Virus record (IMG/VR): IMGVR_UViG_3300044859_000729
Coordinates: 1 to 26,277 of that record
DNA from: a virus
Length of the DNA: 26,277 bases
Strand: one strand, 5' to 3'
Part shown: positions 2,895 to 24,601 of the stretch, piece after piece
How the letters are laid out: the number at the start of each line of letters is the position of its first letter
Numbering within the stretch: position 1 is the first letter of the stretch
Position numbers and translations under genes: made by a program
Notes under the pieces: model-generated
The model's database searches: none
Told to the model about the DNA's origin: nothing
What the model saw: only the letters and a program-made list of their open reading frames with translations

Positions 2895-3109
2895 TGGATT
2901 GGGAACGAGTCAAGTATTTTGCGGTCGCTATTGTCGGCGGGAGAAGTAAGGCAGATTTGGCTAAACAGGGCTATTTCGTGGATGCGACAGATGAAGATGC
3001 TTGGGCTTTGGCGTCATCGCAACCGCAACGCTACGCGGACGAGGAAGTTGAATCAGACATTGGTGTATGTGCGGCATTGCCGCCAGAGATTTTGGAGCAG
3101 TTGGTCTGA
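2894..3109 (+). CDS. Small hypothetical protein, 71 aa
   Basis: Not recognised. The ATG overlaps the previous stop (TAATG), with a GAGG nine bases upstream as a plausible ribosome site, and its own stop overlaps the next start (TGATG), so it is translationally coupled on both sides. The protein is acidic. Its first half (VAIVGGRSKADLAKQGYFVDATDEDAWALA) looks like a small alpha/beta unit, and it ends in a helix. No Cys, no membrane segment, no signal peptide. Its position between two effector-like genes would fit a small partner or immunity-type protein, but nothing in the sequence proves that. Confidence 0.7.
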   Translation: MDWERVKYFAVAIVGGRSKADLAKQGYFVDATDEDAWALASSQPQRYADEEVESDIGVCAALPPEILEQLV

Positions 3110-4149: not shown

Positions 4150-4196
4150 CCTTGGTCAACCCTCTTGCGGGCGGGTGCTTGTAACATCGGACAACC

Positions 4197-9618: not shown

Positions 9619-10038
9619 ATGGCTAACCGACTTACTAAAGGCAAGGGTCTATTTGGTTCGCTTCGTACAAGCGGTCCTGTTGCTGTCAATACTTTGACCG
9701 CAAAGACCACTGTTACGACTTTGACTGATGCCGCTGAAACTTTGACTGCCGCTATGGTTGTCACGAACGGCGGGTTGCTTGTTGGTACTCCTTCTGCTTC
9801 GCGGGCTAAGACAATTCCTACGGGAACTCTTACTTGTGCGGCGTTGAAGGGCTACGCAGTGGGCGACACTTTTGAGGTCAATGTTGTTAACTTGGCTTCT
9901 TCTACTTATCCACTCGTTATTACGGCTGGTACCGATGCGACCATTGTTGGTGCAGCCTCGGTGAGTGCCGCAACATCGGCTACATTCAAGGTTCGCGTAT
10001 CCGCTGCTAATACGGTAGTTTGGTACAGAACAGCATAA
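9619..10038 (+). CDS. Small beta-rich structural protein, 139 aa
   Basis: Preceded by GGGGG-containing ribosome site just after the capsid gene stop. The protein is Thr/Ala/Val-rich with repeated TxTxT runs and predicted all-beta structure: NTLTAKTTVTTLTDAAETLTAAMVV, then a domain with VGDTFEVNVVNLASSTYPLVITAGTDATIVG, ending in VVWYRTA. Short beta-rich proteins in this position are often capsid-surface or head-fibre proteins. No exact family is recognised. Confidence 0.72.
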   Translation: MANRLTKGKGLFGSLRTSGPVAVNTLTAKTTVTTLTDAAETLTAAMVVTNGGLLVGTPSASRAKTIPTGTLTCAALKGYAVGDTFEVNVVNLASSTYPLVITAGTDATIVGAASVSAATSATFKVRVSAANTVVWYRTA

Positions 10039-10084: not shown

Positions 10085-10324
10085 ATGGCATTTAGAGTTC
10101 TAAAACCTATTTCCGCTGATGATGGTTCCATTATTCCTACTGGCACTCTTGTTGAGGCTGAGGGTTGGCGGAATCTTCGGGCTTTGATTAACGGTCGCTA
10201 TTTGGGCGAGGTTTCTGTTGTTGAGGTCGCTGTTGTTGACGAGGCTGTTGATGCTGAGGTAGTAAAACCGAAGGCTAAGAAGGCAAAAGTTGTTGAGGAA
10301 GTGACTGACAATGACAATCTCTAA
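10085..10324 (+). CDS. Small head-region protein with acidic Val/Glu-Lys tail
   Basis: 79 residues. The N-terminal half (GSIIPTGTLVEAEGWRNLRALINGRYLGEV) is a compact beta-helix unit of the 'G.iv......r.L...G.i' type; the tail is a Val/Glu/Asp/Ala/Lys run ending in VEEVTDNDNL. The same architecture recurs at 14835, next to the tail tube genes, so the two are probably paralogues or at least the same design. Small proteins with this layout are common in actinophage-like structural operons but have no firm function. A ribosome site GAGAGAG precedes the ATG. Confidence 0.7.
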   Translation: MAFRVLKPISADDGSIIPTGTLVEAEGWRNLRALINGRYLGEVSVVEVAVVDEAVDAEVVKPKAKKAKVVEEVTDNDNL

Positions 10325-10673
10325 TTATGGTGAGTTGGCGTTTCTTGATACGCTTCGCAATGTTTCTTTTGCTGTCACACAACCTTATGTGAAGTTGCAT
10401 TTGGGTGACCCGGGCGAGGCTGGTACTTCTAACCCTGCTGTTGAGGCAACTCGTAAATCGGTGTCATTTTCGGCGGCTTCTTCTGGCTCTATGGCGACTT
10501 CGGCAACGATTACTTGGACGAATGTGTCTACGACTGAAACTTATAGTCATTGGTCATTATGGGATGCGTTAACCTCTGGCAACTGTTTGTGGACTGGTGC
10601 TTTCAGTTCTTCGGCGGCGGTAACTGCTGGTGACACTTTTCAAATCACTTCGCTCACGCTGACCTTAGATTAG
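10311..10673 (+). CDS. Virion structural protein, 120 aa
   Basis: The ATG overlaps the 3' end of the previous gene by 14 bases. The protein is of a recurrent phage type with YVKLHLGDPGEAGTSN near residues 26-41, a Thr/Ser-rich beta region, and HWSLWDALTSGNCLWTGAF near 80-98. I know this pattern as a common small phage structural or tail-tip-associated protein but have no firm role. No signal peptide or membrane segment. It is predicted all-beta, and sits between the capsid and connector genes. Confidence 0.72.
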   Translation: MTISNYGELAFLDTLRNVSFAVTQPYVKLHLGDPGEAGTSNPAVEATRKSVSFSAASSGSMATSATITWTNVSTTETYSHWSLWDALTSGNCLWTGAFSSSAAVTAGDTFQITSLTLTLD

Positions 10674-10687
10674 TTAGGTAGCCCGTT

Positions 10688-11893
10688 GTGGCTATCATAA
10701 AACGGTTTACGCTGGATGATGCCCTGCTGGGCGTCTTGGATGGTGATTCTTTCCTTGATGGTATTCAGGGGGAGGTTGCTACTGGTAGCGGTTCTGGTTC
10801 TCAAACTGGCGTAGGTTTACGCACTGCTGTTACTACGGCTGAGGGTTACGGCGACTCGGACCCGTTTGGTCCTTCTGGAAATGACACGGTTGTAATTCCT
10901 TGTCGTGTTGCTACGGGTGATGGTGTTTCTGGTGGTAGCGCTGACCGTGTAGTCGTTGTTTTGCGTGATGCGACTGGTTCGGGTTCGGGTTCTGATTCCG
11001 CAGTTGGTTTGTATTCGGCGGTGAGGTCCGCATCTGGAAGTGGTGCTGGTGCTGGGATTGCGGATGGCGCTAGGACGGTTATTAAGATTGCTACTGGTTC
11101 TGGTGCGGGTTCTGAGGTTGTAAGTAAGGTTTTGACCAGTATTCGCACGGCTGCTGATTCGGCTGCTGGCGATGGTGATGCGATTGGGGTTGTTACTCGT
11201 TTCGTGTCGGCTTCTGGTTCTGGTTCTGGTGGTTCTCAGGTTTCTGTTGCTTATGAGGCTTACAGGTCTGCTTACGGTTCTGGTGGTAGCGATACAGGCG
11301 ATTCGGCTGACGGTGAGGTCACGCGCGCCCGCATGGGCGCTGGAAGCGGTGTGGGCGGTTCTAGCGTTGCTACTTTGGTTACGAGTTTTGCTGTTGGTTC
11401 GGATGCCGCGGCAGGTAGTGGTGAGGCGTCAGGGTTTTCTACGCGGGCAAGGACGGGTGCTGCTGCTGGTTCGTCGGGTGAGGATGCGATTGGTGTTCGC
11501 ATAGTTTTACGCACTGCTTTAGGTAGCGGTGTTGGTAGTCAAGCCGCTGACGGTCTGCATATCGCGCCTCGGTTGGCTTCTGGTGAAGGTTTTGGTGGTA
11601 GCAGTATTGCTACTTTGAGAACTGTTTTTGGGGTGGCGTTGGATGCTGCTTCTGGTTCTGCGGCGGTTGTTTCGTTGTTGACGGTTATTCGGTCTGCTTC
11701 CAATAGCGGTTCATCGGGTGCGGTGTCTGAAGGGTTAATAGATGTTCCTATTGCTTTGGCTGATGGTTCGGTTTCGGCAGATGGGGCGAGTCTCGCGGTT
11801 GCCGTTAGCGGGGTAGCACTAAAGGTAGATGCAGACGGTTCTACACTGGCTGTTTTGGCAAGCGGAAATGCAGGAACGGTGGCGCTGGGATAA
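10688..11893 (+). CDS. 401-aa protein of 20-residue Gly/Ser repeats
   Basis: GTG start at 10688. Residues 7-25 read FTLDDALLGVLDGDSFLDG, nearly the same as residues 24-42 of the tail hub-like protein at 21376. Residues about 30-355 are roughly 15-16 tandem degenerate repeats of 20 residues, consensus xATGSGSGSxxAxGLxxxxR, often ending in Arg (some units are longer). Residues 356-401 are an Ala/Val/Ser/Asp-rich end. Each unit would give one or two short beta strands with Gly-Ser turns, suggesting a fibrous beta-solenoid or extended fibre. It lies between capsid and head-tail connector genes, so a head fibre is the best guess; its link to the tail hub by two shared elements leaves a neck or tail role open. 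Function not established. Confidence 0.75.
   Translation: MAIIKRFTLDDALLGVLDGDSFLDGIQGEVATGSGSGSQTGVGLRTAVTTAEGYGDSDPFGPSGNDTVVIPCRVATGDGVSGGSADRVVVVLRDATGSGSGSDSAVGLYSAVRSASGSGAGAGIADGARTVIKIATGSGAGSEVVSKVLTSIRTAADSAAGDGDAIGVVTRFVSASGSGSGGSQVSVAYEAYRSAYGSGGSDTGDSADGEVTRARMGAGSGVGGSSVATLVTSFAVGSDAAAGSGEASGFSTRARTGAAAGSSGEDAIGVRIVLRTALGSGVGSQAADGLHIAPRLASGEGFGGSSIATLRTVFGVALDAASGSAAVVSLLTVIRSASNSGSSGAVSEGLIDVPIALADGSVSADGASLAVAVSGVALKVDADGSTLAVLASGNAGTVALG
10775..11752 (+). repeat. Tandem 60-base coding repeat array
   Basis: Degenerate repeats of about 60 bases (20 codons) inside the 10688 gene. Individual units include GSGSGSQTGVGLRTAV, GSGSGSDSAVGLYSAV, GSGAGAGIADGARTVI and GSGVGSQAADGLHIAP. 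They differ at the DNA level, so the array is old or kept diverse by selection. It resembles the repeats at 22591-22836. Confidence 0.85.
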
Positions 11894-11896
11894 TTT

Positions 11897-12655
11897 ATGG
11901 CTGATATTACAATCAAGTTTGGGGACAGGCTTCCTAAGGTTTCGCGCCAGTTTTTGCAGGATGGTGCTGCTGTTGATTTGACTGGGGCTACGGTCGCTTT
12001 CAACATGTTTAGAGCCTCTACGGGCGTTCAGGTCATCACTAATGGCTCTTGCACGGTGGTTACTGCGGGAACAGGCAGTGTTGAGTATCCGTGGACTGCC
12101 ACCGATGCGACTCTGGTAGCGGACTTCTATTTGGCAAGTTTTACCGCTACTTTCAGTGGTCCCCGATTGCTTACTGCACCAAACGACGGGATGTTGACGA
12201 TTCAGATTGTTGGGACGACTGCGGCTGACTGGTCATACACAGGTAATCCTTCTAGTCGGACCATTGACAAGGTGCGGTTTTTGTGTGGTGACACCAATAG
12301 CGCCAACCAACAGATTATGGACGATGAGATTGTTTTCTTGTTGACCGAGTGGAACAGCGATGCGTATACGGCGGCGGCGTTTGCTTGTGAAGCCATTGCT
12401 GGCAAGTTCCAAGCGAAAGCAGATTATTCGCGCAGTGTTGGCGATTTGTCTATTTCTACACAGTTCGGCGCTTCGGCTAAGGGTTATATGGATAGGGCTA
12501 CGCGACTTCGTGCTTCGGCTTTGAGGGCTGCCCCACCATCACCAAACTGGGATGTTGACGGCTATCCAGAATCTTCGGATATGACGATTGGTTTTGGACG
12601 GAACATCGGTTTCGGTTCGGCGGTTATGCCACCAGTGCAGGATTATCCTGAATGA
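11897..12655 (+). CDS. Head-tail adaptor with BppU-like N-terminal domain
   Basis: 252 residues in two parts. Residues 1-115 have the layout of the BppU-like Ig fold (IKFGDRLPKVSRQFLQDGAAVDLTGATVAFNMF, then YPWTATDATLVADFYLASF and a DGMLTIQI strand). Residues about 122-215 match HK97 gp6-like head-tail adaptors (DKVRFLCGDTNSANQQIMDDEIVFLL, ACEAIAGKFQAKADYSRSVGDLSIS, YMDRATRLR). The adaptor forms a ring under the portal. The C-terminal 40 residues are Gly/Pro-rich. It is followed by stopper, neck and tail terminator genes, the expected connector order. The stop overlaps the next start (ATGA). Confidence 0.82.
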   Translation: MADITIKFGDRLPKVSRQFLQDGAAVDLTGATVAFNMFRASTGVQVITNGSCTVVTAGTGSVEYPWTATDATLVADFYLASFTATFSGPRLLTAPNDGMLTIQIVGTTAADWSYTGNPSSRTIDKVRFLCGDTNSANQQIMDDEIVFLLTEWNSDAYTAAAFACEAIAGKFQAKADYSRSVGDLSISTQFGASAKGYMDRATRLRASALRAAPPSPNWDVDGYPESSDMTIGFGRNIGFGSAVMPPVQDYPE

Positions 12656-12978
12656 CGATTGAGGCGGCTTTTCTTGACCTGATGCCCTCAACAGTGACGG
12701 TCTATGCGAAGTCGTCTGCTGACGCCTACAGCAAAGTTACTTTTAGTGCTACAGGTGTGGCTACCCGTTGCCGAGTTCAGCAGACTGGCAGGGTGGTAAA
12801 AAGCGCCGACAACCGCGATGTTTATGAAACGGGTGTCATCATTTTTTATGGAAGCCCCACCATCACAGAGGATTCTAAGATTGTGCTTCCTGACGGCTCA
12901 ACACCACTGATTCATTCCATTCGTACATACAACGATGAGGACGGCGGAAACCACACCACTGTTTCGTTCGGTAGTTGA
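12652..12978 (+). CDS. Head-tail stopper/joining protein
   Basis: 108 residues, overlapping the adaptor gene by ATGA. Beta-barrel pattern typical of small head-closure proteins: STVTVYAKSSADAYSKVTFSATGVATRCRVQQ, then GVIIFYGSPTITEDSKIVLPDGSTPLIHSIRTYNDEDGGNHTTVSFG. These proteins sit below the adaptor, close the filled head and bind the tail. Short length, position and strand pattern support it. Confidence 0.82.
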   Translation: MTIEAAFLDLMPSTVTVYAKSSADAYSKVTFSATGVATRCRVQQTGRVVKSADNRDVYETGVIIFYGSPTITEDSKIVLPDGSTPLIHSIRTYNDEDGGNHTTVSFGS

Positions 12979-12979
12979 T

Positions 12980-13441
12980 ATGGCGCGTTCTAAGCGGATT
13001 ATTGTCCTAGACGGTTTGCCTAGCCTGTATCGGACTTTTGGTGCGGCTGTAGATGGCATCATGCCCGCTATGGAACAGGCGTTGTATGCGGAAGCCCAAA
13101 ACATTTTGGCTGATTCCCGCAAAGAAGTCCCGTTCCTGACTGGCGCTTTGTCTGCTTCTGGTCGTGTCCATGACCCGTACACCGCAAACAACACGGCGAT
13201 GGTTGAAATCACTTACGGCGGTGCAGCAGGCGGCGAGGTTGATGTTAACTATGCGATTATCCAACACGAGAACACAAGTTTTGTTCATGCCGAGGGTCGC
13301 AAGTCGCACTATTTGGAGGACCCAGTTTTGCGCGCCAAAGAAGGTATGCAGGACCGTTTGGCAAAGAAAATTAACGCTGTTTTGAGGCGTCGTGCAGAGT
13401 ACGAGCAATGGTGGCAGGAGACTGAATATGGCGATTCTTGA
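12980..13441 (+). CDS. HK97 gp10-like neck/tail-completion protein
   Basis: 153 residues from ATG 12980, just after the stopper stop. An in-frame ATG at 12935 would overlap that gene by 44 bases and is rejected. Typical family signature: KEVPFLTGALSASGRVH (about 47-65), VNYAIIQHENTSFVH near 90-105, then KSHYLEDPVLRAKEGMQDRLAKKINAVL, the 'hYle.P' helix seen in gp10-like minor capsid/neck proteins. It should link the stopper to the tail terminator. The end overlaps the next gene by 14 bases. Confidence 0.85.
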   Translation: MARSKRIIVLDGLPSLYRTFGAAVDGIMPAMEQALYAEAQNILADSRKEVPFLTGALSASGRVHDPYTANNTAMVEITYGGAAGGEVDVNYAIIQHENTSFVHAEGRKSHYLEDPVLRAKEGMQDRLAKKINAVLRRRAEYEQWWQETEYGDS

Positions 13442-13823
13442 TTCGTTGGCAACATACCTTCAGACCCAAGGGCAAGGTACGGTTGCTACAGACATTTTTT
13501 TGACTCGGATGCCTGACACCCCTGATGCTTGTGTGACTTTGTATGAGTCGCAAGGCGTTGGACCGTCGCACACTTTTGGCGCAAGCGTGTATGCGATTGA
13601 CCACCAAAGGATTCGTGTGATGTGTCGCGCTGGACGCAATGATTATCCCACTGCGCGTAGCAAGGCGACCGCTATCCGTAACATTTTGGGTGCTGTTCGT
13701 AACACCACTTTGTCTGGTGTGGGTATTTTGAGCATTTTGGCTACTTCGGAGATTTACCCATACACACGGGATGGCGACGACCGTCCTCTTATCGGATGCG
13801 ATTTCACGGTATGGCTGAGTTAG
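13428..13823 (+). CDS. Tail terminator protein
   Basis: 131 residues from ATG 13428; an upstream in-frame GTG-type start at 13392 would overlap the neck gene further. The opening ILDSLATYLQTQGQGTVATDIFLTRMPDTPDACVTLYES and the later AIDHQRIRVMCRAGRNDYPTARSKATAIRNIL pattern match DUF3168/tail terminator-type proteins: helix, strand with a Pro-Asp loop, then a core strand-helix unit. These cap the tail tube and fix its join to the neck. The end overlaps the Com-like gene by 13 bases. Confidence 0.85.
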   Translation: MAILDSLATYLQTQGQGTVATDIFLTRMPDTPDACVTLYESQGVGPSHTFGASVYAIDHQRIRVMCRAGRNDYPTARSKATAIRNILGAVRNTTLSGVGILSILATSEIYPYTRDGDDRPLIGCDFTVWLS

Positions 13824-13972
13824 GCGATGAACAGCCAATAATCAATGCTTACGGCGGTGTAAATCAGGACGACGAACCTCGCTGCTGGCGCTGCAAGAAG
13901 ATGCTCGCCGTCAAAGTAACTAGACCATGGGTTATCATTTGTCACCGTTGTAAGGCTAGGAACAGCGTCTAA
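13811..13972 (+). CDS. Com-like zinc-finger protein, 53 aa
   Basis: A small gene: 53 residues, ATG 13811 to TAA 13970-13972, overlapping the tail terminator by 13 bases. Cysteines C25, C28, C44 and C47 form CxxC-x15-CxxC, with CWRCKKML and ICHRCKARN. From memory, phage Mu Com has the same spacing (C-x2-C, 15 residues, C-x2-C), a basic environment after the second Cys pair and a Lys/Leu next to the first. Com is an mRNA-binding zinc finger that switches on translation of the gene after it. The first 20 residues are acidic and polar. Ribosome site is weak, so translation is probably coupled to the terminator gene. Its role here is inferred; a plain zinc-ribbon protein is the alternative. Confidence 0.72.
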   Translation: MAELGDEQPIINAYGGVNQDDEPRCWRCKKMLAVKVTRPWVIICHRCKARNSV

Positions 13973-13975
13973 TAG

Positions 13976-14004
13976 TTGACTCAAGATGACCGTTCGGTTA
14001 CACT
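13976..14004 (+). promoter_or_regulatory. Sigma70-type promoter TTGACT-N17-TACACT
   Basis: TTGACT (13976-13981) and TACACT (13999-14004) are separated by exactly 17 bases, the same -10 hexamer and spacing as the promoter at 5719. It begins four bases after the Com-like gene stop and would start transcription near 14011, feeding the lysin gene. Confidence 0.82.
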
Positions 14005-14010
14005 TTAGGT

Positions 14011-14161
14011 CAGCACAGGTTATTAAGTAACCCACCGAAAGGTCGCCCCGCGGGGTGTCAATCCCCCAAGCACAACTCCGACGAGGAGGACAAGCGCAAA
14101 TAATACTGGCAGTTGTCCACATGGCTTTCTGCTTTTTTATCCGCCTACCAAAGAGGTATCT
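14011..14161 (+). promoter_or_regulatory. Structured 150-base leader before the lysin gene
   Basis: This non-coding stretch holds several short inverted repeats: GGTTA-TTAAG-TAACC, CCCCGCGGGG, a long-range ACAACT/AGTTGT pair (about 40 bases between), and TACC-AAAGA-GGTA (14146-14158), which would hold the lysin ribosome site (AGAGG) in its loop and stem. A strong GAGGAGGA (14083-14090) has no ATG, GTG or TTG at normal distance. It could be a regulatory leader; no known riboswitch is recognised. Confidence 0.5.
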
Positions 14162-14692
14162 ATGGCTCGTTATCTGACAGCAATTATTTCATTAAGTTTT
14201 TTATCCATCCTGTATTCGGTAGGGGTGGTTGATTCAATGGCGTCGGCGCCTGTGGTTGTTTCCAACGCCGCCGAGGGGCGGGTTGCCGAGGAACCTGCCT
14301 TTGTGTTGCCGCAAGTTTTTAAGCACGGAGATTGTTCGTGGGTGCCATCGGTTGCCTTGGCGGCAGGGTGGAAATCGCACCAGTTGCCACGCCTCATGCA
14401 CATTATTGCCCGCGAGTCAGGGTGTTGCCCGAGGCGCATCGGCGGGTCGGTCGTAGATAAGAATTGTGGTTTCGTCAAAATGGCTACCATGAGCCATCCG
14501 TCAGACAGTGGTTTGACCCAACTCAATGGCTGTCACTGGAAACCTGACCACCCACAATATGCAGGTTTGCTTTGTAAGCAAATGGGGATTTGTACGCAGG
14601 AACCGTTGCTGGACCCGTTCACAAATTTGAAAGCCGCAAAACTTTTGCATGATGTTGCTGGTTGGCAACCTTGGGCGATACCCGTTAACTAA
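14162..14692 (+). CDS. Exported lytic transglycosylase-like lysin
   Basis: 176 residues. Residues 4-29 form an N-terminal hydrophobic segment (LTAIISLSFLSILYSVGVV) with one Arg before it and Ala-Ser-Ala nearby, a signal peptide or anchor. The catalytic domain has the SLT/goose-lysozyme layout: E85 in IIARESGC, SDSGLTQLNGCHW (114-126), then LLDPFTNLKAAKLLHDVAGWQPWA (149-172). E85 is the likely catalytic acid. Seven cysteines suggest disulfides and action outside the cytoplasm. It would cut peptidoglycan glycan strands, either for host lysis or entry. Location between tail terminator and tail tube genes is unusual. It has its own promoter and leader; AGAGG lies six bases before the ATG. Confidence 0.82.
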   Translation: MARYLTAIISLSFLSILYSVGVVDSMASAPVVVSNAAEGRVAEEPAFVLPQVFKHGDCSWVPSVALAAGWKSHQLPRLMHIIARESGCCPRRIGGSVVDKNCGFVKMATMSHPSDSGLTQLNGCHWKPDHPQYAGLLCKQMGICTQEPLLDPFTNLKAAKLLHDVAGWQPWAIPVN

Positions 14693-14834
14693 ACAGGTGT
14701 AAACCCTGCTGTAAGGGTGATGCGTTCTACAATCGGGCTGTTATTCGTGTCCCTGTGACCTCGGCATCGCCCGCTCGTACCCATGTGGTCTGGACGATTC
14801 TGGGGTAGAGGTGCGCCTTATCTCAGGAGTTTAG
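14693..14834. other. Gap after the lysin gene
   Basis: 142 bases with no supported gene. It contains a weak hairpin ACCCT-GCTGTA-AGGGT (14703-14718) without a T-run, so not a convincing terminator. AGGAG near 14825 is the ribosome site for the next gene. No promoter was clear. Confidence 0.5.
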
Positions 14835-15104
14835 ATGCCGAAATACCTCGTAAAACAAGGACTGGAGTACCCGCCGAACCGTGTTGTTTTGGCTGGGGAA
14901 ATTGTTGACGACATTCCTTCGCGCTCAATTAAGTGGCTCCGCGAACAAGGCATTATTGAACCTGCTGATGCGAACGCCAAGGCTGCTGCTGAAGAGCCTG
15001 TGGTTGAAGAACCAATCGTTGAAGAAACACCTGTTGTTGAGGAAGTAGCAGTTGTGGAAGCACCTGAGGCTGAAGAGCCACAAGAAGAAAAGAAGGCAAA
15101 GTAA
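14835..15104 (+). CDS. Small tail-region protein with acidic Val/Glu tail
   Basis: 89 residues. The N-terminal part (PNRVVLAGEIVDDIPSRSIKWLREQGIIEPAD) resembles the compact unit in the 10085 protein: a strand, a Gly turn, a short helix, then 'G-hydrophobic-I'. The tail is a long Val/Glu run (VEEP, VEET, VEEV) ending in KKAK. It is preceded by AGGAG and overlaps the tail tube start (TAATG). Function unknown; an electrostatic binding role in tail assembly is possible. Confidence 0.72.
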   Translation: MPKYLVKQGLEYPPNRVVLAGEIVDDIPSRSIKWLREQGIIEPADANAKAAAEEPVVEEPIVEETPVVEEVAVVEAPEAEEPQEEKKAK

Positions 15105-15829
15105 TGGCTTTTATTCACGGCAAAGACACCGTAGTTTTACACGGCGCTTATGCGTTGACCGCTTTCCTTAATGACGGCTCAGTTTCGTCTGATGTGGAGA
15201 CTGCCGAAACGACCAGTTTTGGAAATAGCGCCAAAACCTATGTGACGGGTTTGAAGGACGGGACCATTTCCGCTTCTGGCATGTTTGACGGCGCAGCAAG
15301 CGCTGTAGACGAAATTTTGACAGCGAGCATTGGCTCAGATTTGCTTTCACCTGTTACTTTGGGTGTCAGCGGAACCACAATCGGCAATCGCGTAGCCTTG
15401 CTTCAAGCAAAAACCACTTCGTATGAGGTTTCGTCACCTGTAGGTGATGTTGTTTCCGTGTCGTATGACGCTCAGGCTGACGGCGGCATTGATTACGGTG
15501 TCTCATTGGCGGCTTTGGGTTCAGTATCCGCAACCACCAACAGCACTTCGGTAGACAATGCTGCTTCTACCGCCAATGGTGGTCTTGCCCAGTTGCATGT
15601 CACCGCAAACTCACGGTCCGCTAATGCGACCTTCAAAATTCAACATTCAGCCGATAACTCAACTTGGGCAGACTTGACTACTTTTACTGTCGTTTCTACG
15701 GCAGTTACAACTTCGGAACGGGTCGCAGTTGCGGCTGGCACCACCGTTAACCGATACCTACGGGCGCAGGTAACACTCGCTTCTGGTACAGGCTCAATCA
15801 CATATCAAACATCTTTCGCACGGAGGTAA
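15104..15829 (+). CDS. Tail tube (major tail) protein with extra C-terminal domain
   Basis: 241 residues. Residues 1-135 form a beta-rich tube domain with SSDVETAETTSFGNSAKTYVTGLKDGTISASGMFDG, a signature shared with the next gene. Residues about 136-241 form a second beta sandwich (NATFKIQHSADNSTWADLTTFT and TTVNRYLRAQVTLASGTGSITYQTSFARR), which would project outside the tube as decoration. Tail tube proteins stack as hexamer rings around the tape measure. Start overlaps the previous stop. Confidence 0.82.
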   Translation: MAFIHGKDTVVLHGAYALTAFLNDGSVSSDVETAETTSFGNSAKTYVTGLKDGTISASGMFDGAASAVDEILTASIGSDLLSPVTLGVSGTTIGNRVALLQAKTTSYEVSSPVGDVVSVSYDAQADGGIDYGVSLAALGSVSATTNSTSVDNAASTANGGLAQLHVTANSRSANATFKIQHSADNSTWADLTTFTVVSTAVTTSERVAVAAGTTVNRYLRAQVTLASGTGSITYQTSFARR

Positions 15830-15832
15830 ATC

Positions 15833-16249
15833 GTGGCGTTCGTACATGGCAAGTCAGCAGTATTCAAGTTAGACAACTCATCGGGTACACTCGTTGATTA
15901 TTCGTCGTATCTCAACGATTTAAGTCTCAGCCGAGACATTGAGACAGCAGAAACCACAACCTTCGGGGTTGCTGGTTCAGCAAAAACCTACATCGTCGGT
16001 CTTTCGGATGCTACTTTCAGCATCAGCGGACTGTTTGATGCGACGGCAGATGGAACGCTTGCTGGTGTTCTCGGTTTTGCAACTCCTTTGGAGTTTGAAT
16101 ACGGTCCAGCAGGTTCCTCTGGTGGTTTAATCAAATACTCAGGTAATTGCATTATGACCTCGTATGAGATTTCAGCAGCAGTAGGAGATGCCGTTCAGGC
16201 GTCCGCAGACTTCCAAGTGACGGGTGCTATCACTCGTGGCACTTGGTAG
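15833..16249 (+). CDS. Second tail tube-like protein, 138 aa
   Basis: GTG start at 15833, three bases after the previous stop. It aligns with the tube domain of the upstream gene: MAFVHGKSAVFKL, RDIETAETTTFG, SAKTYIVGLSDATFSISGLFDATADG, then TSYEISAAVGDAVQASADF. It lacks the C-terminal decoration domain. Paralogous tube genes may make two-protein tubes, or one may be the tail-tip-proximal ring. Confidence in family is high, in exact role moderate. Confidence 0.82.
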   Translation: MAFVHGKSAVFKLDNSSGTLVDYSSYLNDLSLSRDIETAETTTFGVAGSAKTYIVGLSDATFSISGLFDATADGTLAGVLGFATPLEFEYGPAGSSGGLIKYSGNCIMTSYEISAAVGDAVQASADFQVTGAITRGTW

Positions 16250-16296
16250 TGATGAACCAATAGGTGCATCAAACCCACAAACATAGGAGAAATATC

Positions 16297-16680
16297 GTGT
16301 CCCTTCGTGACCGCATTATTGCAGTAGACGACCTCCAACGCGAAATCGTAACGATTGAGCAATGGGGTCTTGAAGTAGAAGTTCGTGGAATGAGCGGTGC
16401 GGCAAGAGCCGCCATCGTTCAAGATGCCGCTGACAACAACGGTTCAATCAACTTCGGTAAGTTGATGCCTGAAATCGTGCTGTCTTGCACCTTTGACCCT
16501 GAAACGGGTGAGCAGGTGTTTGCCGCCGAGGACAAGGAACTCATCATGGCGAAGTCTGGTGCTGCTTTGGAAAAAATTAACACGGTCGCGATGCGATTGT
16601 CTGGATTCGGGGCTGATGCTATTGACGCCGCGGGAAAAGACTCCTCATCAACACCGAAAGGCGGTTCCTCTACGATTTAG
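16297..16680 (+). CDS. Tail assembly chaperone, short form (G-like)
   Basis: 127 residues from GTG 16297, preceded by AGGAGA (16284-16289). An earlier in-frame GTG at 16264 lacks a ribosome site. The segment IVTIEQWGLEVEVRGMSGAARAAIVQDAA and the later LSCTFDPETGEQVFAAEDKELIMAKSGAALEKINTVAMRLSGFGADA are typical of tail assembly chaperones, which bind the tape measure during tail assembly. The frame contains a -1 slippery heptamer GGGAAAA at 16632-16638, and ends at TAG 16678-16680 after SSTPKGGSSTI. Confidence 0.85.
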   Translation: MSLRDRIIAVDDLQREIVTIEQWGLEVEVRGMSGAARAAIVQDAADNNGSINFGKLMPEIVLSCTFDPETGEQVFAAEDKELIMAKSGAALEKINTVAMRLSGFGADAIDAAGKDSSSTPKGGSSTI

Positions 16681-16829
16681 CGGAGAAGTTGGGGCGGACG
16701 GTATCTGAACTGTTGTACGGTTCGCCCGCCCATCTCCCTATCACCTCTGCTGAAATCGTTGAGTGGGCTGCTCTGTATAAGTTGAGAGCATACGACGCGG
16801 AACAGGCAAACAAACGACGCAAGAGGTAA
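16297..16829 (+). CDS. Tail assembly chaperone, frameshifted long form (GT-like)
   Basis: Slippage by -1 on GGGAAAA (16632-16638) would join 114 residues of the first frame to 63 residues read from 16638 to 16829. The extension runs RLLINTERRFLYDLAEKLGR, then TVSELLYGSPAHLPITSAEI, VEWAALYKLRAYDAEQANKRRKR. It has no start codon of its own, is in the -1 frame, and looks like the T part of lambda-type GT proteins (LAEKLGRTVSEL... S-E-hydrophobic-x-E-W-x-A). It ends three bases before the tape measure GTG. The heptamer matches the X-XXY-YYZ pattern, the same class as lambda's GGGAAAG. Confidence 0.85.
16632..16638 (+). promoter_or_regulatory. -1 programmed frameshift slippery site GGGAAAA
   Basis: In the zero frame it reads G-GGA-AAA. 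Codons GGA (16633-16635) and AAA (16636-16638) can re-pair as GGG and AAA after one backward step. The downstream -1 frame is open up to TAA at 16827-16829. No clear stimulatory hairpin was identified by eye. Confidence 0.85.
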
Positions 16830-16832
16830 GTA

Positions 16833-19800
16833 GTGGCTGAAGATATTGAAGTAATTGCGCGGCTTGGCTCCGTAGATGAAGGAATGGTTGACGGGTTTCG
16901 TCAAGCCACTAAAGCCGCCGCGCAATTACAACAACAAACAAGTCAAGTAAGTAAAGGTTTAATCGCGGCTGGTGCTGCGGTTGGTGCTGCTGCCTTTGCT
17001 ATGTATAAGTTTGGCAAAAGTTCGTTTGATTCCGCTGCTCGTGTTTCCGAACTTAATGTGGCTATTGATGCGATTGGTAAGTCGTCTGGTGTTGGTGCCA
17101 AAACGATAAATGAAACCGCAAAGGCTATTGCTAAGCAAGGTATTGAGATGGCGGCTGCTCAGCAGATGGCTATTGAGTACGCGCAAGGCAACTTGAACAT
17201 GGCTCAAGCCGCCGAAATTGCTCGTGTCGGTCAAGACTTAGCAGTTATTTCGCAGAAGAACTCTACGGATACTGCCCAGTTGTTGACTCGTGCTATCAAA
17301 ACGGGTAACAGCATGTTGTTGAAATCTGCTGGTGTTTCTCGTATGGCGTCTGAGGGTTACGCGGATTATGCTCGCCAGTTAGGCAAAAACAGTACCCAGT
17401 TGACTGCTACTGAACGCCAACAGGCAATCATCAACCTTATTTTGGATGAGGGCGCGAAGGTTGCAGGCGTTTATGAAGCCGCCATGCAAGAACCAGGTAA
17501 GGTTTTGCGTTCGTTCCCACGGTTGTTGAACGATATGCAGGTGGCTTTCGGTGGGGCTTTGTTGAAGGGCTTTGGTCCAATGATTAAAGCCGCCTATGAC
17601 TTAACGAACGCTTTTTCTAAGTCGGTTAAGGAAGGTGGGGCGCTTTATCCGTTTATTACGGAGTTGGGTTCCGCGTTAAAAATCTTGTTGACTCCTTTTA
17701 AGGAGATGATTGTTGGTTTGACCAACACGATTAAACGCTTTAAGGAGATGGGTTTTTCTGCTGATGGGGCGGCTAAGTCAATCCAAAAGTTTGCGCCGTT
17801 TGTTTTGGCGGCGGCTACGGCGTTGTCTACTTTGGCTGGTAGAGGCATATTGCAGATAATCCCAGGGTTGAAAGGTTTTGCTAAATTCCTTAATCCTGTT
17901 ACCGCTGGTATTGCGGTTTTGATTGCATTGAACCCGAAGTTGAGGGATGGCTTCATGCGAATCGGGAAAGCATTGATGCCGTTGATTCCCGCGTTTTTGG
18001 CTATCGGTAAAGCGATTGCCGATGCAACTACCGTTGTTGTGGACAATTTGGGTTCTATGGTTGATGTGCTTTCTGGTCCTTTAGCAAGTGTCATCAATGT
18101 GGTTGCTGATGCGTTTAAGTTTATGGCTTATTTTATTTCGGCTATCAGCCCTGTTTTGCAGCCGCTCATTATTTTGTTCGGTGTCAAATATGTGGCTAGT
18201 TTGTTGGCTGTTCAAGTGGCGACGATTAAAACGGCGTTTGCTTCTGGTTCTTTGGCAGCGCAAACAGGAATTTTAGGAAAGGTTGTTGCTGCTACCTCAA
18301 GGTTGTGGACTCAATACAACTACAACTTGTTTGAAACGAAAAAAATCATGCCTGCTCTAAAGGCAACATCGGTCGCTACTTTTACGGCTATCAAGGGTGC
18401 GATTATGTCCACGATGGCGGCTTTGGGACCGATGCTTCTGATTACCGTCGGAATTATGGCGTTGATGAAGGTGTTTCAAGCCTTCTCTGACCGCAATAAG
18501 CAGTTAGAAGAACGCACGAAAGCATTGACGGAGGCTGCTAACTCTCAAGTTAAAGCACTCGCGAAAAATCGTGTTGAGTTGGGCAACTATTTGCAGTCAA
18601 CAAAAATGACTGGGAAAACGATTGCTCAAACTGCTGAGGATGGCGAGAAACTCACGAGCGCTCTGTATGGTGTTGGTCGGGAAGCCGCAGATTCAATCGG
18701 CGTCCTCCAATCGTTTCAAGAGAACACCTATGAGGCTGCTTATGCTTTGGCTCTTGCCAAAACTGGGAGTGCCGAGGCGGCTCAAGAAATCGCCAGCGCT
18801 GTTTCCAAGTTTGACAGGTCAGCACAAATCGTCGCTACTGTGTCTGCGGAATACAAAGATTTGGCGTTGGCGTTGGAAGAAATTGATGACCAGTCTGAAA
18901 AAACGGATATTTCTAAGTTCGTTCAGGGTCAGTTGGATGCTGTTGCCGCGTTGGGTAAAGAGGAAGCCGCTCTTGTTGCCGCGACGAAAGCACAGGTTGA
19001 AGCCGACTATGCGAAGCGCGGCGACACGAATACAACGAGAATGTATTTGGACATCCAAAGCAAAGTTGGCAAAGAGTTAATTGCTTTGGCTAAATCGCAG
19101 GAAAAGCAGGCGACCGCTACGGATAAAGCCAAAATTGCTACAAAGTCTATGGTTCAACGCTTGCAAGAGTTGAAGGGTGCCGCTGATGACGGCAAGGTTT
19201 CTGCCGAGGAAATGGCTAAGGCGCTTTATGGTCTTGAGGCTTTTGCTGCTGTTGACACCGCAAAGGGCATTATGGAAATGCGAAAAGGCATGACCGATTT
19301 GATGGACACGGTGAAGGAAAGCAAAGGCAACTTTGATGGTTTGACTTCGGCTGGTTTCCAGTTGTTTGACATGGTTGCAAGCAACGGCGTCAAGATGCGC
19401 GAATTAGGTAAAAGCAACGAAGAAGTTGCAGCAATGCAAACCGTCCTCATTGAGCGGTTTATGGGTTCGGCTAAAGCAGCAGGGTTCACTGACACTGCCG
19501 TGAAACAGTTGTTGGACTCAATGGGAATGTTGAGTGGTTTCCGCCCGAAAGTGGTCATTGACGCCGACATTAAGGGCTTTGAAGCAAAAATTAAGGCTGT
19601 TTATGCTTCGCTTGAGGCGTTGGCGGCTGGAACGAACGATAATCAACTTCGCAAAGAATACTTGGACATGCTTAGCGGCTACAAGCAGGCTATGGCGGCG
19701 TTGCAGAAGGAATCTAACGCTTACAACACCTACAACAGCCAGTTAACGAAGGTTCAGCAGAACGCTAAGGGTGCGGCTAAAGAAACCAAAGAGGTAACCC

Positions 19801-21374
19801 GCGAGAAGGAGCGTTTGCGCGCCGCCATCATCAAAGTGGTTAAAGACGCTTTGGACAAAGAAATCAAAAAACTTGAAGAATTAAAGGCAAAACTAGATGC
19901 CTTGAAGTCGGCTACCGAAGATGCGATTATGGGTGGTTACGATTTTGGTGCTGCTTTGGCTACCGCTAAAGATGAAGCACAAAAAACCAATGACAAGTTG
20001 CAGGCGCTTCGTGACCAAATGATTTCTTTCCAAGATGGTGTGTCGGACGCTGTTTCTGGCTCTTTCCTGATGGCGGATGCTTTAGGGGCGCAAAAACAGG
20101 CTGCTGATGAGTTGGCTGCTGCTAATCAGGATTTGATAGGCGCACAATATGATGTCGCCGCGGCTAATGCGATGGTGGAATCGGCTTCCGAGAAGTATTT
20201 GTCGGCTAGGGGCAGGAAGGCTCGCCGCGAGGCTTTTGAGGAGTTGCAAAAAGCGGCTGCTGATTTGATTCCTGTGCAGCAAAAGTTGGCTGATGCGACC
20301 GATGTTGCTTCGTTGGCGCAGGCTAAACAGATTTCGTTTTTGGAGCGTTTGCAACAGCAAGCGGACCGCGCTAAGGGTTTTGCGGCAAAGTTGCAGCAGT
20401 TGGTTTCGCTTGGTTTAAGCGAAAAGGGTTTGCAAGAGATTGTTTCTGCTGGTGCTGAGACTGGCGGCGCTATGGCAGATGAACTCATCAAGGGTGGTTC
20501 TGGTGCTATTAAACGCACGAACGAGTTGTTTGCCGAAATTGGGGAAGTTGCCAAAAAGACTGGCATGAATTTGGCAGACAATTTCTACAAGATTGGTACC
20601 GATGTTGGCGCAGACTTCATTGCTGCTTTGGCTCGTCAGGCAAACAACGCAGAGAAGTTCTCCACAAGAGTTAAAGAGTTGGTTGCCGCAGGTTTCGCTC
20701 CTGAGGCTATACAACAGGTATTGAACGCTGGCGTGACGGCTGGTACCGAGATTGCTGACGCTTTGTTGGCTGGTGGTCAGCAAGCGGTTACGGAGTCAAC
20801 GGCGTTGCATGATTCGCTTCGGGCTACTGCCGATTCGTTAAAAACTTTGTTGGGTGACAAGTTTTATCAAACAGGTATTGATTTGGCACAAAAGATTGTG
20901 GATGGTTTACAGGCAAAATTGGATGAGTTGGAGGACTTGTTGCCTGATATGGACATTCCGACTTTGAAGGCTACTTTGGGTCAAGTTACGGCTGATGTTC
21001 AAAGTATTGTTACCCCACCAGCCGCTTTTACCCCTGCTGCCAGCGCTTTTAAGCCTGAAGATTTTGTTATTGATTACGCACAAATAGAAAACTTGCAGAA
21101 AGAGTTGATGACATTTGATTGGTCAAATATCAGAATGTTTGCAGACGGCGGAATCGTAAAATCCGCGCAATTAGGTATCGTAGGCGAGAGCGGTCCTGAG
21201 GCAATAATTCCGTTGGATAGGTTGAACTCTATGGGCGGCGGCGGCGGAACAACAATCAATTTGACGGTTAACGCGGGCATGGGTGCCGATGGCAGGAACA
21301 TTTCGGACACGATTGTAAACGAACTCATCAAGTATCAGCGTCGTAACGGCAAGATTCCTGTGGTGACACTCTGA
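16833..21374 (+). CDS. Tape measure protein
   Basis: 1513 residues, GTG start three bases after the chaperone extension. The first 70 residues contain the usual 'QATKAAAQLQQQTSQVSKGL' helix and an AGAAVGAAAFAMYKFG hydrophobic segment. A conserved tape-measure N-terminal region follows (FDSAARVSELNVAIDAIGKSSG, AAQQMAIEYAQGNLNMAQAAEIARVGQDL, TGNSMLLKSAGVSRMASEGYA). Hydrophobic helices occur near 340-365 and 525-550 (MAALGPMLLITVGIMALMKVF). The rest is mostly helical coiled coil with many Ala, Lys and Glu. It ends in ADGGIVKSAQLGIVGESGPEAIIPLDRL, typical for the tape measure C-terminus. Using the known 1.5 angstrom per residue rule, the tail would be about 225 nm. No peptidase or lysozyme domain was seen. 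Confidence 0.93.
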   Translation: MAEDIEVIARLGSVDEGMVDGFRQATKAAAQLQQQTSQVSKGLIAAGAAVGAAAFAMYKFGKSSFDSAARVSELNVAIDAIGKSSGVGAKTINETAKAIAKQGIEMAAAQQMAIEYAQGNLNMAQAAEIARVGQDLAVISQKNSTDTAQLLTRAIKTGNSMLLKSAGVSRMASEGYADYARQLGKNSTQLTATERQQAIINLILDEGAKVAGVYEAAMQEPGKVLRSFPRLLNDMQVAFGGALLKGFGPMIKAAYDLTNAFSKSVKEGGALYPFITELGSALKILLTPFKEMIVGLTNTIKRFKEMGFSADGAAKSIQKFAPFVLAAATALSTLAGRGILQIIPGLKGFAKFLNPVTAGIAVLIALNPKLRDGFMRIGKALMPLIPAFLAIGKAIADATTVVVDNLGSMVDVLSGPLASVINVVADAFKFMAYFISAISPVLQPLIILFGVKYVASLLAVQVATIKTAFASGSLAAQTGILGKVVAATSRLWTQYNYNLFETKKIMPALKATSVATFTAIKGAIMSTMAALGPMLLITVGIMALMKVFQAFSDRNKQLEERTKALTEAANSQVKALAKNRVELGNYLQSTKMTGKTIAQTAEDGEKLTSALYGVGREAADSIGVLQSFQENTYEAAYALALAKTGSAEAAQEIASAVSKFDRSAQIVATVSAEYKDLALALEEIDDQSEKTDISKFVQGQLDAVAALGKEEAALVAATKAQVEADYAKRGDTNTTRMYLDIQSKVGKELIALAKSQEKQATATDKAKIATKSMVQRLQELKGAADDGKVSAEEMAKALYGLEAFAAVDTAKGIMEMRKGMTDLMDTVKESKGNFDGLTSAGFQLFDMVASNGVKMRELGKSNEEVAAMQTVLIERFMGSAKAAGFTDTAVKQLLDSMGMLSGFRPKVVIDADIKGFEAKIKAVYASLEALAAGTNDNQLRKEYLDMLSGYKQAMAALQKESNAYNTYNSQLTKVQQNAKGAAKETKEVTREKERLRAAIIKVVKDALDKEIKKLEELKAKLDALKSATEDAIMGGYDFGAALATAKDEAQKTNDKLQALRDQMISFQDGVSDAVSGSFLMADALGAQKQAADELAAANQDLIGAQYDVAAANAMVESASEKYLSARGRKARREAFEELQKAAADLIPVQQKLADATDVASLAQAKQISFLERLQQQADRAKGFAAKLQQLVSLGLSEKGLQEIVSAGAETGGAMADELIKGGSGAIKRTNELFAEIGEVAKKTGMNLADNFYKIGTDVGADFIAALARQANNAEKFSTRVKELVAAGFAPEAIQQVLNAGVTAGTEIADALLAGGQQAVTESTALHDSLRATADSLKTLLGDKFYQTGIDLAQKIVDGLQAKLDELEDLLPDMDIPTLKATLGQVTADVQSIVTPPAAFTPAASAFKPEDFVIDYAQIENLQKELMTFDWSNIRMFADGGIVKSAQLGIVGESGPEAIIPLDRLNSMGGGGGTTINLTVNAGMGADGRNISDTIVNELIKYQRRNGKIPVVTL

Positions 21375-21375
21375 C

Positions 21376-22890
21376 ATGCCACAGACAATGCCGTGGGGTG
21401 CGGAATACACCCTTTTAGGTGAGTTCAACTTACCGTCAAACATTTTTACTTTGGATGATGCGACGCTCGGAGTTTTGGATGGCAACTGCTATTTAGACGG
21501 TCGCACAGAGGACGATTTGACGGACCGTTTGCAGTCGGTGGAGATAAGCCGCGGACGCCACGACCAGTTCCAAGATTTTCAGGCTGGGACGATGCGATTG
21601 ACGCTTTCCAACAATGACCGCGAACTTGACCCTGTAAACACCGCGTCACGCTATTTTGACCCTGTTTCTGGAACATCTGGAGTCACAATTCGTCGCAAAG
21701 TTACCCTCAAGTATCAAAATACCAAGATTTTTACTGGGCGTATCACCGATATTGATATTGCTTACGACCCAACATCCAGTCCGAACACCCGTTCCACGGT
21801 CACGATTGATGCCGCCGACGACTTCGTTTTGCTTGCCAACACCACCTTGGATGAGGTTTTGCCCACATCACAGTTATCGGGCGCTCGGGTCAATGCGATT
21901 CTTGCTTTGCCTGAAGTCAACTACACGGGTCCAACCAGCATTGACACGGGAACAGTCCTCTGTTTGGACGACCCGATTGCAGAACAAACTAGAACGATTG
22001 ATGCGTTGCAGGCGGTCGCAGCAACAGAACGCGGCTACCTGTATTTCAAGGGTGACGGCACCCTTGTGTTTACGGACCGTATTACAGGCTCACCAATTCC
22101 GCTCAAAATCTTTGCTGATGACGGCACAGGGCAAGAATATGAGTCTTTGTCCATTGTTTACGGGCAAGAAAACCTGTTTAACCGTGTTGTTTGTACGCCG
22201 ATTGACTCGGTGACTCCTAGCGTTGCCGATGATGCTGCTAGTCAAGCCACTTTTGGTATCGCAACCCTTTCCATTGGCGGTCTGCTCTGCTCGGACGCCA
22301 ACGCGCAAACGCTCGCCAACTACCTGTTAGCCCTCTACAAAGACCCGTCGTACCGCTTTGACGGTATGGGTATCACTTTCATGGGCAACAACATAGGGTT
22401 GGTTTCTCAACAAGAAATCATCAACCTTGACTTGGGCGATGTGGTCCGAGTGGTCAAAAACTTTGCTATCGGCACACCAACCTCGGTTTATCAGAATGTC
22501 GCGATTGAACACATTGACCATGCGATTACACCACAATCTCACAACATCACTTTCCGTTACGCCCCAGCGCCGTTCACAACGATAACTCGCACGGCAACTG
22601 GTTCTGGCACAGGCACTCAAACGGCTTCAGGGTTGAGGATTACAGGAAAAACTGCTGAAGGCACTGGTGGCGCTACCGCTGGTGATAGTGCTACGGGTGT
22701 TCGCGTTGCTTTGAGAACGGCTACAGGCTCAGGCTCAGGCTCCGAAACGGCTACCCCGCTCGTTACGAGGGTGGCTGTAGCAACGGGTTCAGGCTCAGGC
22801 TCCGAAACCGCTTCGTTCACAATTCTGTTTGTGTTGGAGTTGGATTCGGCTACGCGAGGCTTACTAGATACGAACATTCTCGGTAACTAG
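21376..22890 (+). CDS. Tail hub/minor tail protein with C-terminal 20-residue repeats
   Basis: 504 residues, ATG one base after the tape measure stop. The first 22 residues precede FTLDDATLGVLDGNCYLDG (24-42), shared with the 10688 protein. The core (about 45-395) has DRLQSVEISRGRHDQFQDFQAGTMRLTLSNNDRELDP, a common start of phage tail hub or Gp37-like minor tail proteins, then KVTLKYQNTKIFTGRITDIDIAYDP and ADDFVLLANTTLDEVLP. Residues 406-487 are four repeats of 20-22 residues (TATGSGTGTQTASGLRITGK type). The last 17 residues (ELDSATRGLLDTNILGN) again resemble the LDDATLGVLDG motif. It should sit at the tail tip next to the tape measure end. Confidence 0.82.
   Translation: MPQTMPWGAEYTLLGEFNLPSNIFTLDDATLGVLDGNCYLDGRTEDDLTDRLQSVEISRGRHDQFQDFQAGTMRLTLSNNDRELDPVNTASRYFDPVSGTSGVTIRRKVTLKYQNTKIFTGRITDIDIAYDPTSSPNTRSTVTIDAADDFVLLANTTLDEVLPTSQLSGARVNAILALPEVNYTGPTSIDTGTVLCLDDPIAEQTRTIDALQAVAATERGYLYFKGDGTLVFTDRITGSPIPLKIFADDGTGQEYESLSIVYGQENLFNRVVCTPIDSVTPSVADDAASQATFGIATLSIGGLLCSDANAQTLANYLLALYKDPSYRFDGMGITFMGNNIGLVSQQEIINLDLGDVVRVVKNFAIGTPTSVYQNVAIEHIDHAITPQSHNITFRYAPAPFTTITRTATGSGTGTQTASGLRITGKTAEGTGGATAGDSATGVRVALRTATGSGSGSETATPLVTRVAVATGSGSGSETASFTILFVLELDSATRGLLDTNILGN
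22591..22836 (+). repeat. Four 20-22-residue coding repeats at the hub C-terminus
   Basis: Units start TATGSGTGT, TAEGTGGATAGD, TATGSGSGSETA and VATGSGSGSETA. The last two share an identical DNA stretch TCAGGCTCAGGCTCCGAAAC. The consensus is the same as in the 10688 protein, roughly 11 kb upstream. Confidence 0.85.
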
Positions 22891-22940: not shown

Positions 22941-23360
22941 ATGGCAAGACAGACATTTACTTCCGGGCAGGTGCTTACTGCGGCGCAGATGGGAACGCTG
23001 CAAAGTAGCGTTTGGAGCGACGATGTAAACGCCCAAACAGGCACCTCGTACACATTGGTTCTCGCGGACTCAGGAAAACAGGTCACGATGACCAATGCGT
23101 CTGTTTCCACTTTGACGGTCCCGCCGAACTCCTCTATCGCGTTTGCTATCGGTGTCCGTATTCAGGTCATTCAGTTGGGTGCTGGAGCGGTAACTTTGAC
23201 AGCAGGCGCAGGAGTAACAATTAATAGCCTTGCCACATCTTTTGAAATGGCACAATATCAAGTCGCTACCCTCATCAAGACTGCTACAGACACTTGGGTT
23301 GCTAACCTCGGTGCGGCTGGTGGTGGCGCAGATGTTTTACAAGTACAAGTTTTTAGTTAG
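22941..23360 (+). CDS. Small tail structural protein, 139 aa
   Basis: It starts RQTFTSGQVLTAAQMGTLQSSVW, an opening I associate with phage tail or fibre proteins, then a beta-rich domain (TSYTLVLADSGKQVTMTNASVSTLTVPPNSSIAFAIGVRIQVIQLGAGAVTLTAGAGVTI). That domain resembles the repeated carbohydrate-tail or fibre-type beta unit. The end is Gly/Ala/Asp then VLQVQVFS. AGGAC precedes the ATG. Structural role likely, exact site unknown. Confidence 0.75.
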   Translation: MARQTFTSGQVLTAAQMGTLQSSVWSDDVNAQTGTSYTLVLADSGKQVTMTNASVSTLTVPPNSSIAFAIGVRIQVIQLGAGAVTLTAGAGVTINSLATSFEMAQYQVATLIKTATDTWVANLGAAGGGADVLQVQVFS

Positions 23361-23743: not shown

Positions 23744-24601
23744 GTGACGCTTCGCTGGGATACTCGCAACAGGGTTTCTACAACTGTCCAATCGTGGATG
23801 TACGGTGTTACTACTCCTCCCATATTTCCACCTCCAACCGTAGAGTATCTAGTTATTGCTGGTGGTGGTGGCGGTGGAAATAATTTTATTGAAGGGGCTT
23901 CAGGAAATTACAACGGTGGTGGTGGTGCAGGCGGCTATCGCAGTTCAGCAAGTTTTGCTGTTGGCGGTTCTGTCACGGTAACTGTTGGTGCTGGCGGAGG
24001 TTCGCAGTCCAAAGGAAGCAACTCGGTTTTCAGCACGATTACTTCTACTGGTGGCGGTGCAAGCAGAAGTGCTGGTGGTTCAGGCGGTGGTGCTTTATTC
24101 AACACAGGCGGCGGCGGTGCAGGAAACGAAGGTGGATTCTCTCCGTCAGAAGGCAACACGGGAGGTTCATCGCCAGGGTCTAACGGTGGTGGTGGTGGTG
24201 GTGGTGGTGCTGGCGGTGCTGGCGGTGCTAGTTCCAACACTAATTCAGGTGCAGGCGGTGCTGGTTCTTCGTCAAGCATCACAGGTTCCGCGGTAACTCG
24301 TGGTGGTGGTGGTGGTGGAAGTGGCGGTGACTTTGCATTTGGTGCTAGTGGAGGTTCTGGTGGTGGCGGCAATGGTTTTGGACCTGGTCTTGCCAATTCT
24401 AACGGTTCGGCAAATACTGGTGGCGGTGGAGGTGGCAAGAACGGTTCTGGTGGTTCTGGAATTGTAATCATTGCCTATGCAGACACATTTGACCCGATTG
24501 CTTCTATTGGTGCTGGTCTTACATATTCGGTTTCAACTGTTTCTCGTTCAGGTTTTCGTGTTTATACTTTTACTGCTGGAACAGGAACGGTGACTTTCTA
24601 A
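23744..24601 (+). CDS. Glycine-rich tail-tip/receptor-binding-type protein
   Basis: 285 residues, GTG start. After a short head (1-33) comes one glycine-rich module: EYLVIAGGGGGG, GAGGYRSSASFAVGGSVTVTVGAGGG, NSVFSTITSTGGGASR, long Gly/Ser/Asn runs, SSSITGSAVTRGGGGG, ending SGIVIIAYADTF near 240. The last part is a beta strand pair ending FRVYTFTAGTGTVTF. The pattern matches the Gly-rich domain of phage tail tips, where Gly runs may pack as polyglycine II helices and contact the receptor, as in T4-like adhesins. The stop overlaps the next start. Confidence 0.78.
   Translation: MTLRWDTRNRVSTTVQSWMYGVTTPPIFPPPTVEYLVIAGGGGGGNNFIEGASGNYNGGGGAGGYRSSASFAVGGSVTVTVGAGGGSQSKGSNSVFSTITSTGGGASRSAGGSGGGALFNTGGGGAGNEGGFSPSEGNTGGSSPGSNGGGGGGGGAGGAGGASSNTNSGAGGAGSSSSITGSAVTRGGGGGGSGGDFAFGASGGSGGGGNGFGPGLANSNGSANTGGGGGGKNGSGGSGIVIIAYADTFDPIASIGAGLTYSVSTVSRSGFRVYTFTAGTGTVTF

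Follow-up and report, generated by a model that had tools for sequence, protein, structure and literature searches.

The window, that is, the whole stretch of DNA analysed here, is a single virus record (IMGVR_UViG_3300044859_000729) of 26,277 bases. A repeat-rich open frame, called ORF-R below, follows a small collar-type gene, and a tail hub gene follows the tape-measure gene. The features are as follows.

8656–9606, + strand: major capsid protein, for context (phrog_1005, E = 4.7e-95; about 50% identity to Arthrobacter/Microbacterium phage capsid proteins)
10311–10673, + strand: small collar/neck-whisker-type protein (gp80-like), directly upstream of ORF-R (PF23140 Gp80, E = 9.5e-25)
10688–11893, + strand: ORF-R, 401 aa, repeat-rich and fibre-like (open frame; phrog_23524, E = 2.7e-25; homologues L013–L022)
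10706–10762, + strand: N-terminal motif copy of ORF-R, FTLDDALLGVLDGDSFLDG
10775–11722 (approximate limits), + strand: ORF-R array of 20-residue Gly/Ser/Thr-rich repeats (autocorrelation peaks at 20 and 40 residues)
16833–21374, + strand: tape-measure protein, for context, directly upstream of the hub (weak phrog_167 match; length and position)
21376–22890, + strand: tail hub protein, 504 aa (AlphaFold2 model and Foldseek)
21445–21501, + strand: hub motif copy in the N-terminal loop, FTLDDATLGVLDGNCYLDG
22591–22830, + strand: hub C-terminal extension of three to four 20–22-residue repeats
22834–22887, + strand: C-terminal motif copy of the hub, LELDSATRGLLDTNILGN, with the core LDSATRGLLDTNILG at 22840–22884, then one N and the stop
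22941–23360, + strand: short fibre-type protein with an N-terminal F.sGqVLTA module, candidate hub partner (phrog_8780 minor tail protein, E = 1.5e-17)
23744–24601, + strand: glycine-rich protein (PF21722), likely a receptor-binding tip (Pfam, E = 9.7e-13)
24601–26277, + strand: another glycine-rich protein, running off the end of the window (open reading frame, composition)

The original prediction held that ORF-R and the hub share a near-identical leader motif and 20-residue repeats, and that a third motif copy closes the hub protein. All three statements were confirmed, with the coordinates given above: the two leader copies agree in 15 of 19 residues, and the repeat arrays of the two proteins are related (BLASTP, E = 7e-15). 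Shuffling the hub sequence 2,000 times never gave more than 9/19, and the motif alone aligned between the two proteins with E = 3e-6 in BLASTP without filter. ORF-R is rich in Gly, Ser and Thr and belongs to phrog_23524, a family of unassigned function, which was matched by the repeats of the hub as well (E = 3.9e-14). Autocorrelation gave a repeat period of 20 residues for ORF-R (z = 8.0 at lag 20 and 8.5 at lag 40), and the period of the hub repeats is 20 to 22 residues. The idea of a collagen-like fibre was rejected for ORF-R, as its period is 20 and it has no regular G-x-y run. The motif has the consensus F-x-L-D-[DS]-x-x-x-G-x-L-D-x-[TN]-x-(x)-L-[GAD]-[GF] and is 18–20 residues long. Within the arrays of the window lineage, its copies are spaced by 43, 63–66 and 86 residues, which is close to 2, 3 and 4 times 21.5 and means that the motif is in register with the repeats; a motif-to-motif spacing of 65–66 residues was found in the hub and ORF-R alike.

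Pfam and NCBIfam hold no model that recognises the window hub, and the hub profile matched no PDB entry at sequence level. The AlphaFold2 model of the protein had a pLDDT of 77, and Foldseek found 57 PDB matches at E ≤ 0.001, including Mu gp44 (1wru, E = 1.7e-14), T4 gp27 (1k28_D, E = 1.9e-13) and 3cdd; the prophage MuSo2 tail protein and contractile-injection hubs were also matched. The hub gene starts at 21376, adjoining the tape-measure gene that ends at 21374. By its predicted fold and gene position, 21376–22890 is a gp27/Mu gp44-type tail hub. It shares the predicted core fold and the position after the tape-measure gene with gp27/Mu gp44/VgrG-type hubs, but differs from them by the motif copies in the N-terminal loop and at the C-terminus and by the repeat shaft. 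A repeat-free hub homologue of 403 aa (L068), modelled from 58 sequences, reached a pLDDT of 91 and gave similar matches (62 in Foldseek). The C-terminal motif copy, which is among the most conserved parts of the hub, was a low-confidence coil in both models, with pLDDT below 50 in the window hub. It is thus very conserved yet unstructured alone, which is how a docking peptide would be expected to look. The N-terminal copy had pLDDT below 50 at hub residues 31–42 in the window model and 70–79 in the L068 model, and with such values in the deeper model it may simply be part of the hub fold.

The protein encoded at 10311–10673, directly before ORF-R, scored 87.8 bits against PF23140 (Gp80, fibre I of podophage GP4; cut-off 27), and in the PDB it matched 8jou_a (E = 1.6e-6) and 9c39_K (E = 1.9e-6). 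The latter comes from the neck map of phage Sf14, where whiskers are described by the authors of the structure. The window protein is in the same family as GP4 fibre I gp80 and the Sf14 neck proteins, and by analogy with these structures it would form a ring or whisker at the neck; a counterpart of the shaft protein ORF-R was not found in the accessible part of the GP4 and Sf14 descriptions. ORF-R itself had no match in Pfam and NCBIfam. Judged from gene order, it is probably a head-module fibre tied to the neck collar. When ORF-R, its first 38 residues or its L125 counterpart was searched by tblastn against cultured phages, no match was obtained, for which the low-complexity filter is a possible cause. 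In L019 (1043–5135), the PF23140 gene is separated from the ORF-R homologue by fibre-type genes, one of them with a Gly-rich stretch, and this homologue starts with MAVLYNNSGFLYNASNLSYNG instead of the motif.

The motif was not confined to this genome. A degenerate DNA pattern for FTLDxxxxGVLDG matched 79 viral stretches versus 3 in 257 Gb of prokaryote contigs, and among these three, one match lay in a non-hub frame and the other two showed no motif in any frame. The pattern for the C-terminal form matched 35 viral stretches. Nearly all viral matches were hubs, mostly without repeats. We therefore rejected the ideas that the motif is peculiar to the ORF-R/hub pair, as it is widespread in hubs, and that it is tied to repeats, as most of its carriers have none; motif and repeats can be separated. 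With a 14-position weight matrix, 217 matches scored above 16 bits versus 0 in shuffled proteins, a count that is not independent because the loci were partly fetched by the motif, and the frequencies below are biased in the same way. In 150 non-identical complete motif ORFs, which take in a few ORF-R homologues, both the N and C copies were present in 99, the C copy only in 32 and the N copy only in 18, and the last copy started 17–19 residues before the C-terminus in 125. As a less biased check, complete hubs were retrieved by their N copy, and the C copy was present in 35 of these 37. Of the hubs retrieved by their C copy, only about one-third had the N copy, so a hub can have one copy without the other. 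Positions L3, D4, G9, L11 and D12 are nearly fixed in N- and C-type copies alike. Among environmental phages, the motif is a signature found widely in gp27/Mu gp44-like hubs. A hub-profile scan of prokaryote genomes gave no match, and no motif-bearing hub was recognised there. The occurrence of the motif in many unrelated proteins without repeats had been named as evidence against a functional link, and only half of this was found: many hubs with the motif are repeat-free, but the carriers are nearly all homologous hubs.

Two hub variants were seen beside this distribution. At its C-terminus, the hub at 3190–5238 of L023 has IWDSGLWDTGKWDT where the motif is usually found; this sequence keeps the strand-turn rhythm of the motif and may replace it functionally. 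In a group of hubs with the C-terminal motif only (L105, 4279–6246), a laminin-G-like domain is inserted in the hub.

The position of the motif also bears on a second explanation, by which it is a foldon-like trimerisation or registration cap that starts, interrupts or ends trimeric shafts and binds no other protein. We regard this as unlikely. Hubs of the gp27/Mu gp44 fold are trimeric in known structures, and the motif stands at array ends and in register inside arrays in both proteins, as such a cap would; but it is equally conserved at the C-terminus of shaft-free hubs, and a registration cap has no obvious role in the N-terminal loop of the hub.

Then, the arrangement around ORF-R was compared between lineages. 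In L125, L209, L213 and L227, the gene after a PF23140-like gene encodes a repeat protein that starts with the motif, with repeats unlike those of the window, and in L078 a weaker motif variant was seen in the protein after the PF23140-like gene. On this sequence comparison, the arrangement of an ORF-R-type gene, with the motif or a variant, after a PF23140 gene is present in the window lineage and at least two others. The sharing between hub and fibre recurs too. On the contig of L209 (G002), the hub (L261) and the ORF-R-like protein (L267) share the motif and a lineage-specific repeat, which has a period of 20 residues in both proteins but is not of the window type; this hub carries repeats of its own ORF-R-like type and then the motif variant FTLDTSLLDGSDGLG at its end. 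Sharing of motif and repeat with a different repeat type makes an accident of the window genome unlikely. Among the hubs with repeats, three of four matched the ORF-R of their own genome best and the fourth matched an ORF-R of its own lineage, so lineage-matched repeats were seen in four genomes of two lineages. The window has its PF23140 gene and motif-bearing repeat gene downstream of the major capsid gene, but L125 and L271 (G003) have both upstream of it, so the pair appears mobile as a cassette.

The motif and lineage-matched repeats common to hub and ORF-R could also mean that ORF-R is a tail-tip protein, with its N-terminal motif pairing with the hub motif in one joint fibre. This seems improbable, because ORF-R is paired with a collar/whisker-type head-module gene in the lineages seen and because some phages that have the hub motif lack ORF-R. 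In L005 and L033, ORF-R is missing and the hub motif is kept, which means that ORF-R is not an obligatory partner of the hub motif.

Recombination between the two genes was another proposal of the original prediction, and in its recent form it was not supported. The motif DNA of ORF-R and the window hub is 74% identical over 42 nt, whereas that of the window hub is 81–83% identical to the hubs of two other genomes. Apart from the motif, no significant DNA similarity was found between the two window loci. Their comparison gave one 38-nt stretch at 79%, and for the G002 hub and ORF-R-like genes the limit was about 71% over 75 nt. Tested in this way at the DNA level, recent conversion was not supported and is unlikely; an old duplication is possible. 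More generally, fibre modules may have been copied between loci within a genome, leaving shared elements without shared function. Fibre genes are modular, the N-terminal modules of ORF-R homologues have been exchanged (as in L019) and repeat types match within lineages, all of which fit copying; still, we consider it a poor explanation, as the DNA similarity between the loci is weak, the window hub motif is nearer to some other hubs than to ORF-R, and the motif is kept over large divergence, which argues for function.

The reading that we prefer, with a probability of about one in two, is that the motif is a short assembly or docking element that caps or punctuates a repeat shaft in both the hub and a head-module fibre. 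The analysis shows the sequence and positions of the motif, its recurrence, the lineage-matched repeats, the hub fold and the lack of predicted structure in the C copy. Tail hubs have the motif in an N-terminal loop and at the exact C-terminus, and in some phages it is also interspersed in a C-terminal shaft of approximately 20-residue repeats. A second repeat-shaft protein, encoded directly after a collar/whisker-type gene of the head module, starts with the motif or a variant of it in the window and at least two other lineages. From this we infer docking or capping as the role of the motif: in the hub it would most likely clasp the fibre proteins of the genes just after it, and in ORF-R the collar base encoded upstream. 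The virion could then carry shafts of one kind at both tail tip and neck, and a single peg-like connector and a single kind of shaft would serve two virion proteins from different modules. The earlier idea of a common docking site or one fibre system is thus kept in part: the recurrence in G002 and the conserved, unstructured C copy speak for it, but the loss of ORF-R in L005 and L033 and the motif in repeat-free hubs speak against an obligatory joint fibre.

The genes downstream of the hub were inspected for partners. Under a loose pattern, the ORF after the hub had a G..LTA-type N-terminus for 96 of 125 motif-bearing hubs, against a background of 2.8%, and single-linkage clustering of the downstream genes covered 137 of 145 hubs. 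By the strict F.aG..LTA module test, such an ORF followed 47 of 121 hubs, so one clean downstream family was rejected and only the weaker claim is used, by which the short proteins encoded just after the hub are candidate motif partners. The L005 hub continues beyond its repeats and motif into a fused Gly-rich tip, which resembles the ones with genes of their own in the window; the stretch fused in L004/L005 is similar to 23744–24601. The protein at 9619–10038 was tried as a relative of 22941–23360 and rejected, as no similarity was found.

For few siphophages is it known how fibres are attached to the tail hub. There is a published precedent in mycobacteriophage Mysterious, where a loop and C-terminal motif of the distal tail protein (DTP), together with the hub C-terminus, clamp fibre trimers (PMC13252515). 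As far as the available part of that report goes, its baseplate is like the arrangement predicted here in that a loop and C-terminal tail of the tail-tip core anchor fibres and Gly-rich proteins are encoded nearby, but the loop is on the distal tail protein rather than the hub and no shared motif sequence is reported, so the two are likened by description. For the proposed neck fibre, a likeness is found in Anabaena phage A-1(L), in which long multi-gene fibres sit on a neck ring and a bead-chain fibre is made from gp82/gp81/gp80 (PMC10966104); it is likened to ORF-R by description as well. When 50,697 phage records were searched with four hub queries, Pontimonas phage phiPsal1 was the only match, so the group is otherwise without relatives in that collection. 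The phiPsal1 protein gp19 (MG835450) is a 30% identical hub homologue with N and C motif copies, but this hub has no repeats and no other motif-bearing repeat ORF was found in 29 kb of the phage sequence; phiPsal1 was seen in a single DNA preparation and lost afterwards (PMC6106888).

A literature search for the motif strings gave no match. The kind of hub is known; for the pair of terminal motifs, and for a motif common to hub and head-module fibre, no earlier description seems to exist within what was searchable. The near-invariant 18-residue C-terminal tag on many divergent hubs predicts the residues that would hold the fibre, and it lets hubs and ORF-R-like fibres be recognised in viromes where annotation fails. 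The sharing suggests that neck and tail-tip fibres could be built from the same parts. A broader version, in which this single short peptide is a general connector in a large, almost uncultured, probably actinobacterial phage group, with the same shaft at tail tip and neck and sequences that change together between lineages, is tentative and in our opinion rather doubtful.

Two further features were noticed in the window. Directly after ORF-R, 11897–12655 encodes one protein in which a fibre-type beta domain (weak phrog_1084) appears joined to a connector-like domain (phrog_1732); in L033 the connector-like part stands alone. Beside the head genes (741–5036), the segment K-A-S-F-G-G-D-R-S-A-A-G-R-Y-A-A or a variant of it occurs in three consecutive ORFs: twice in 741–2894, and in 3067–4149 and 4197–5036.
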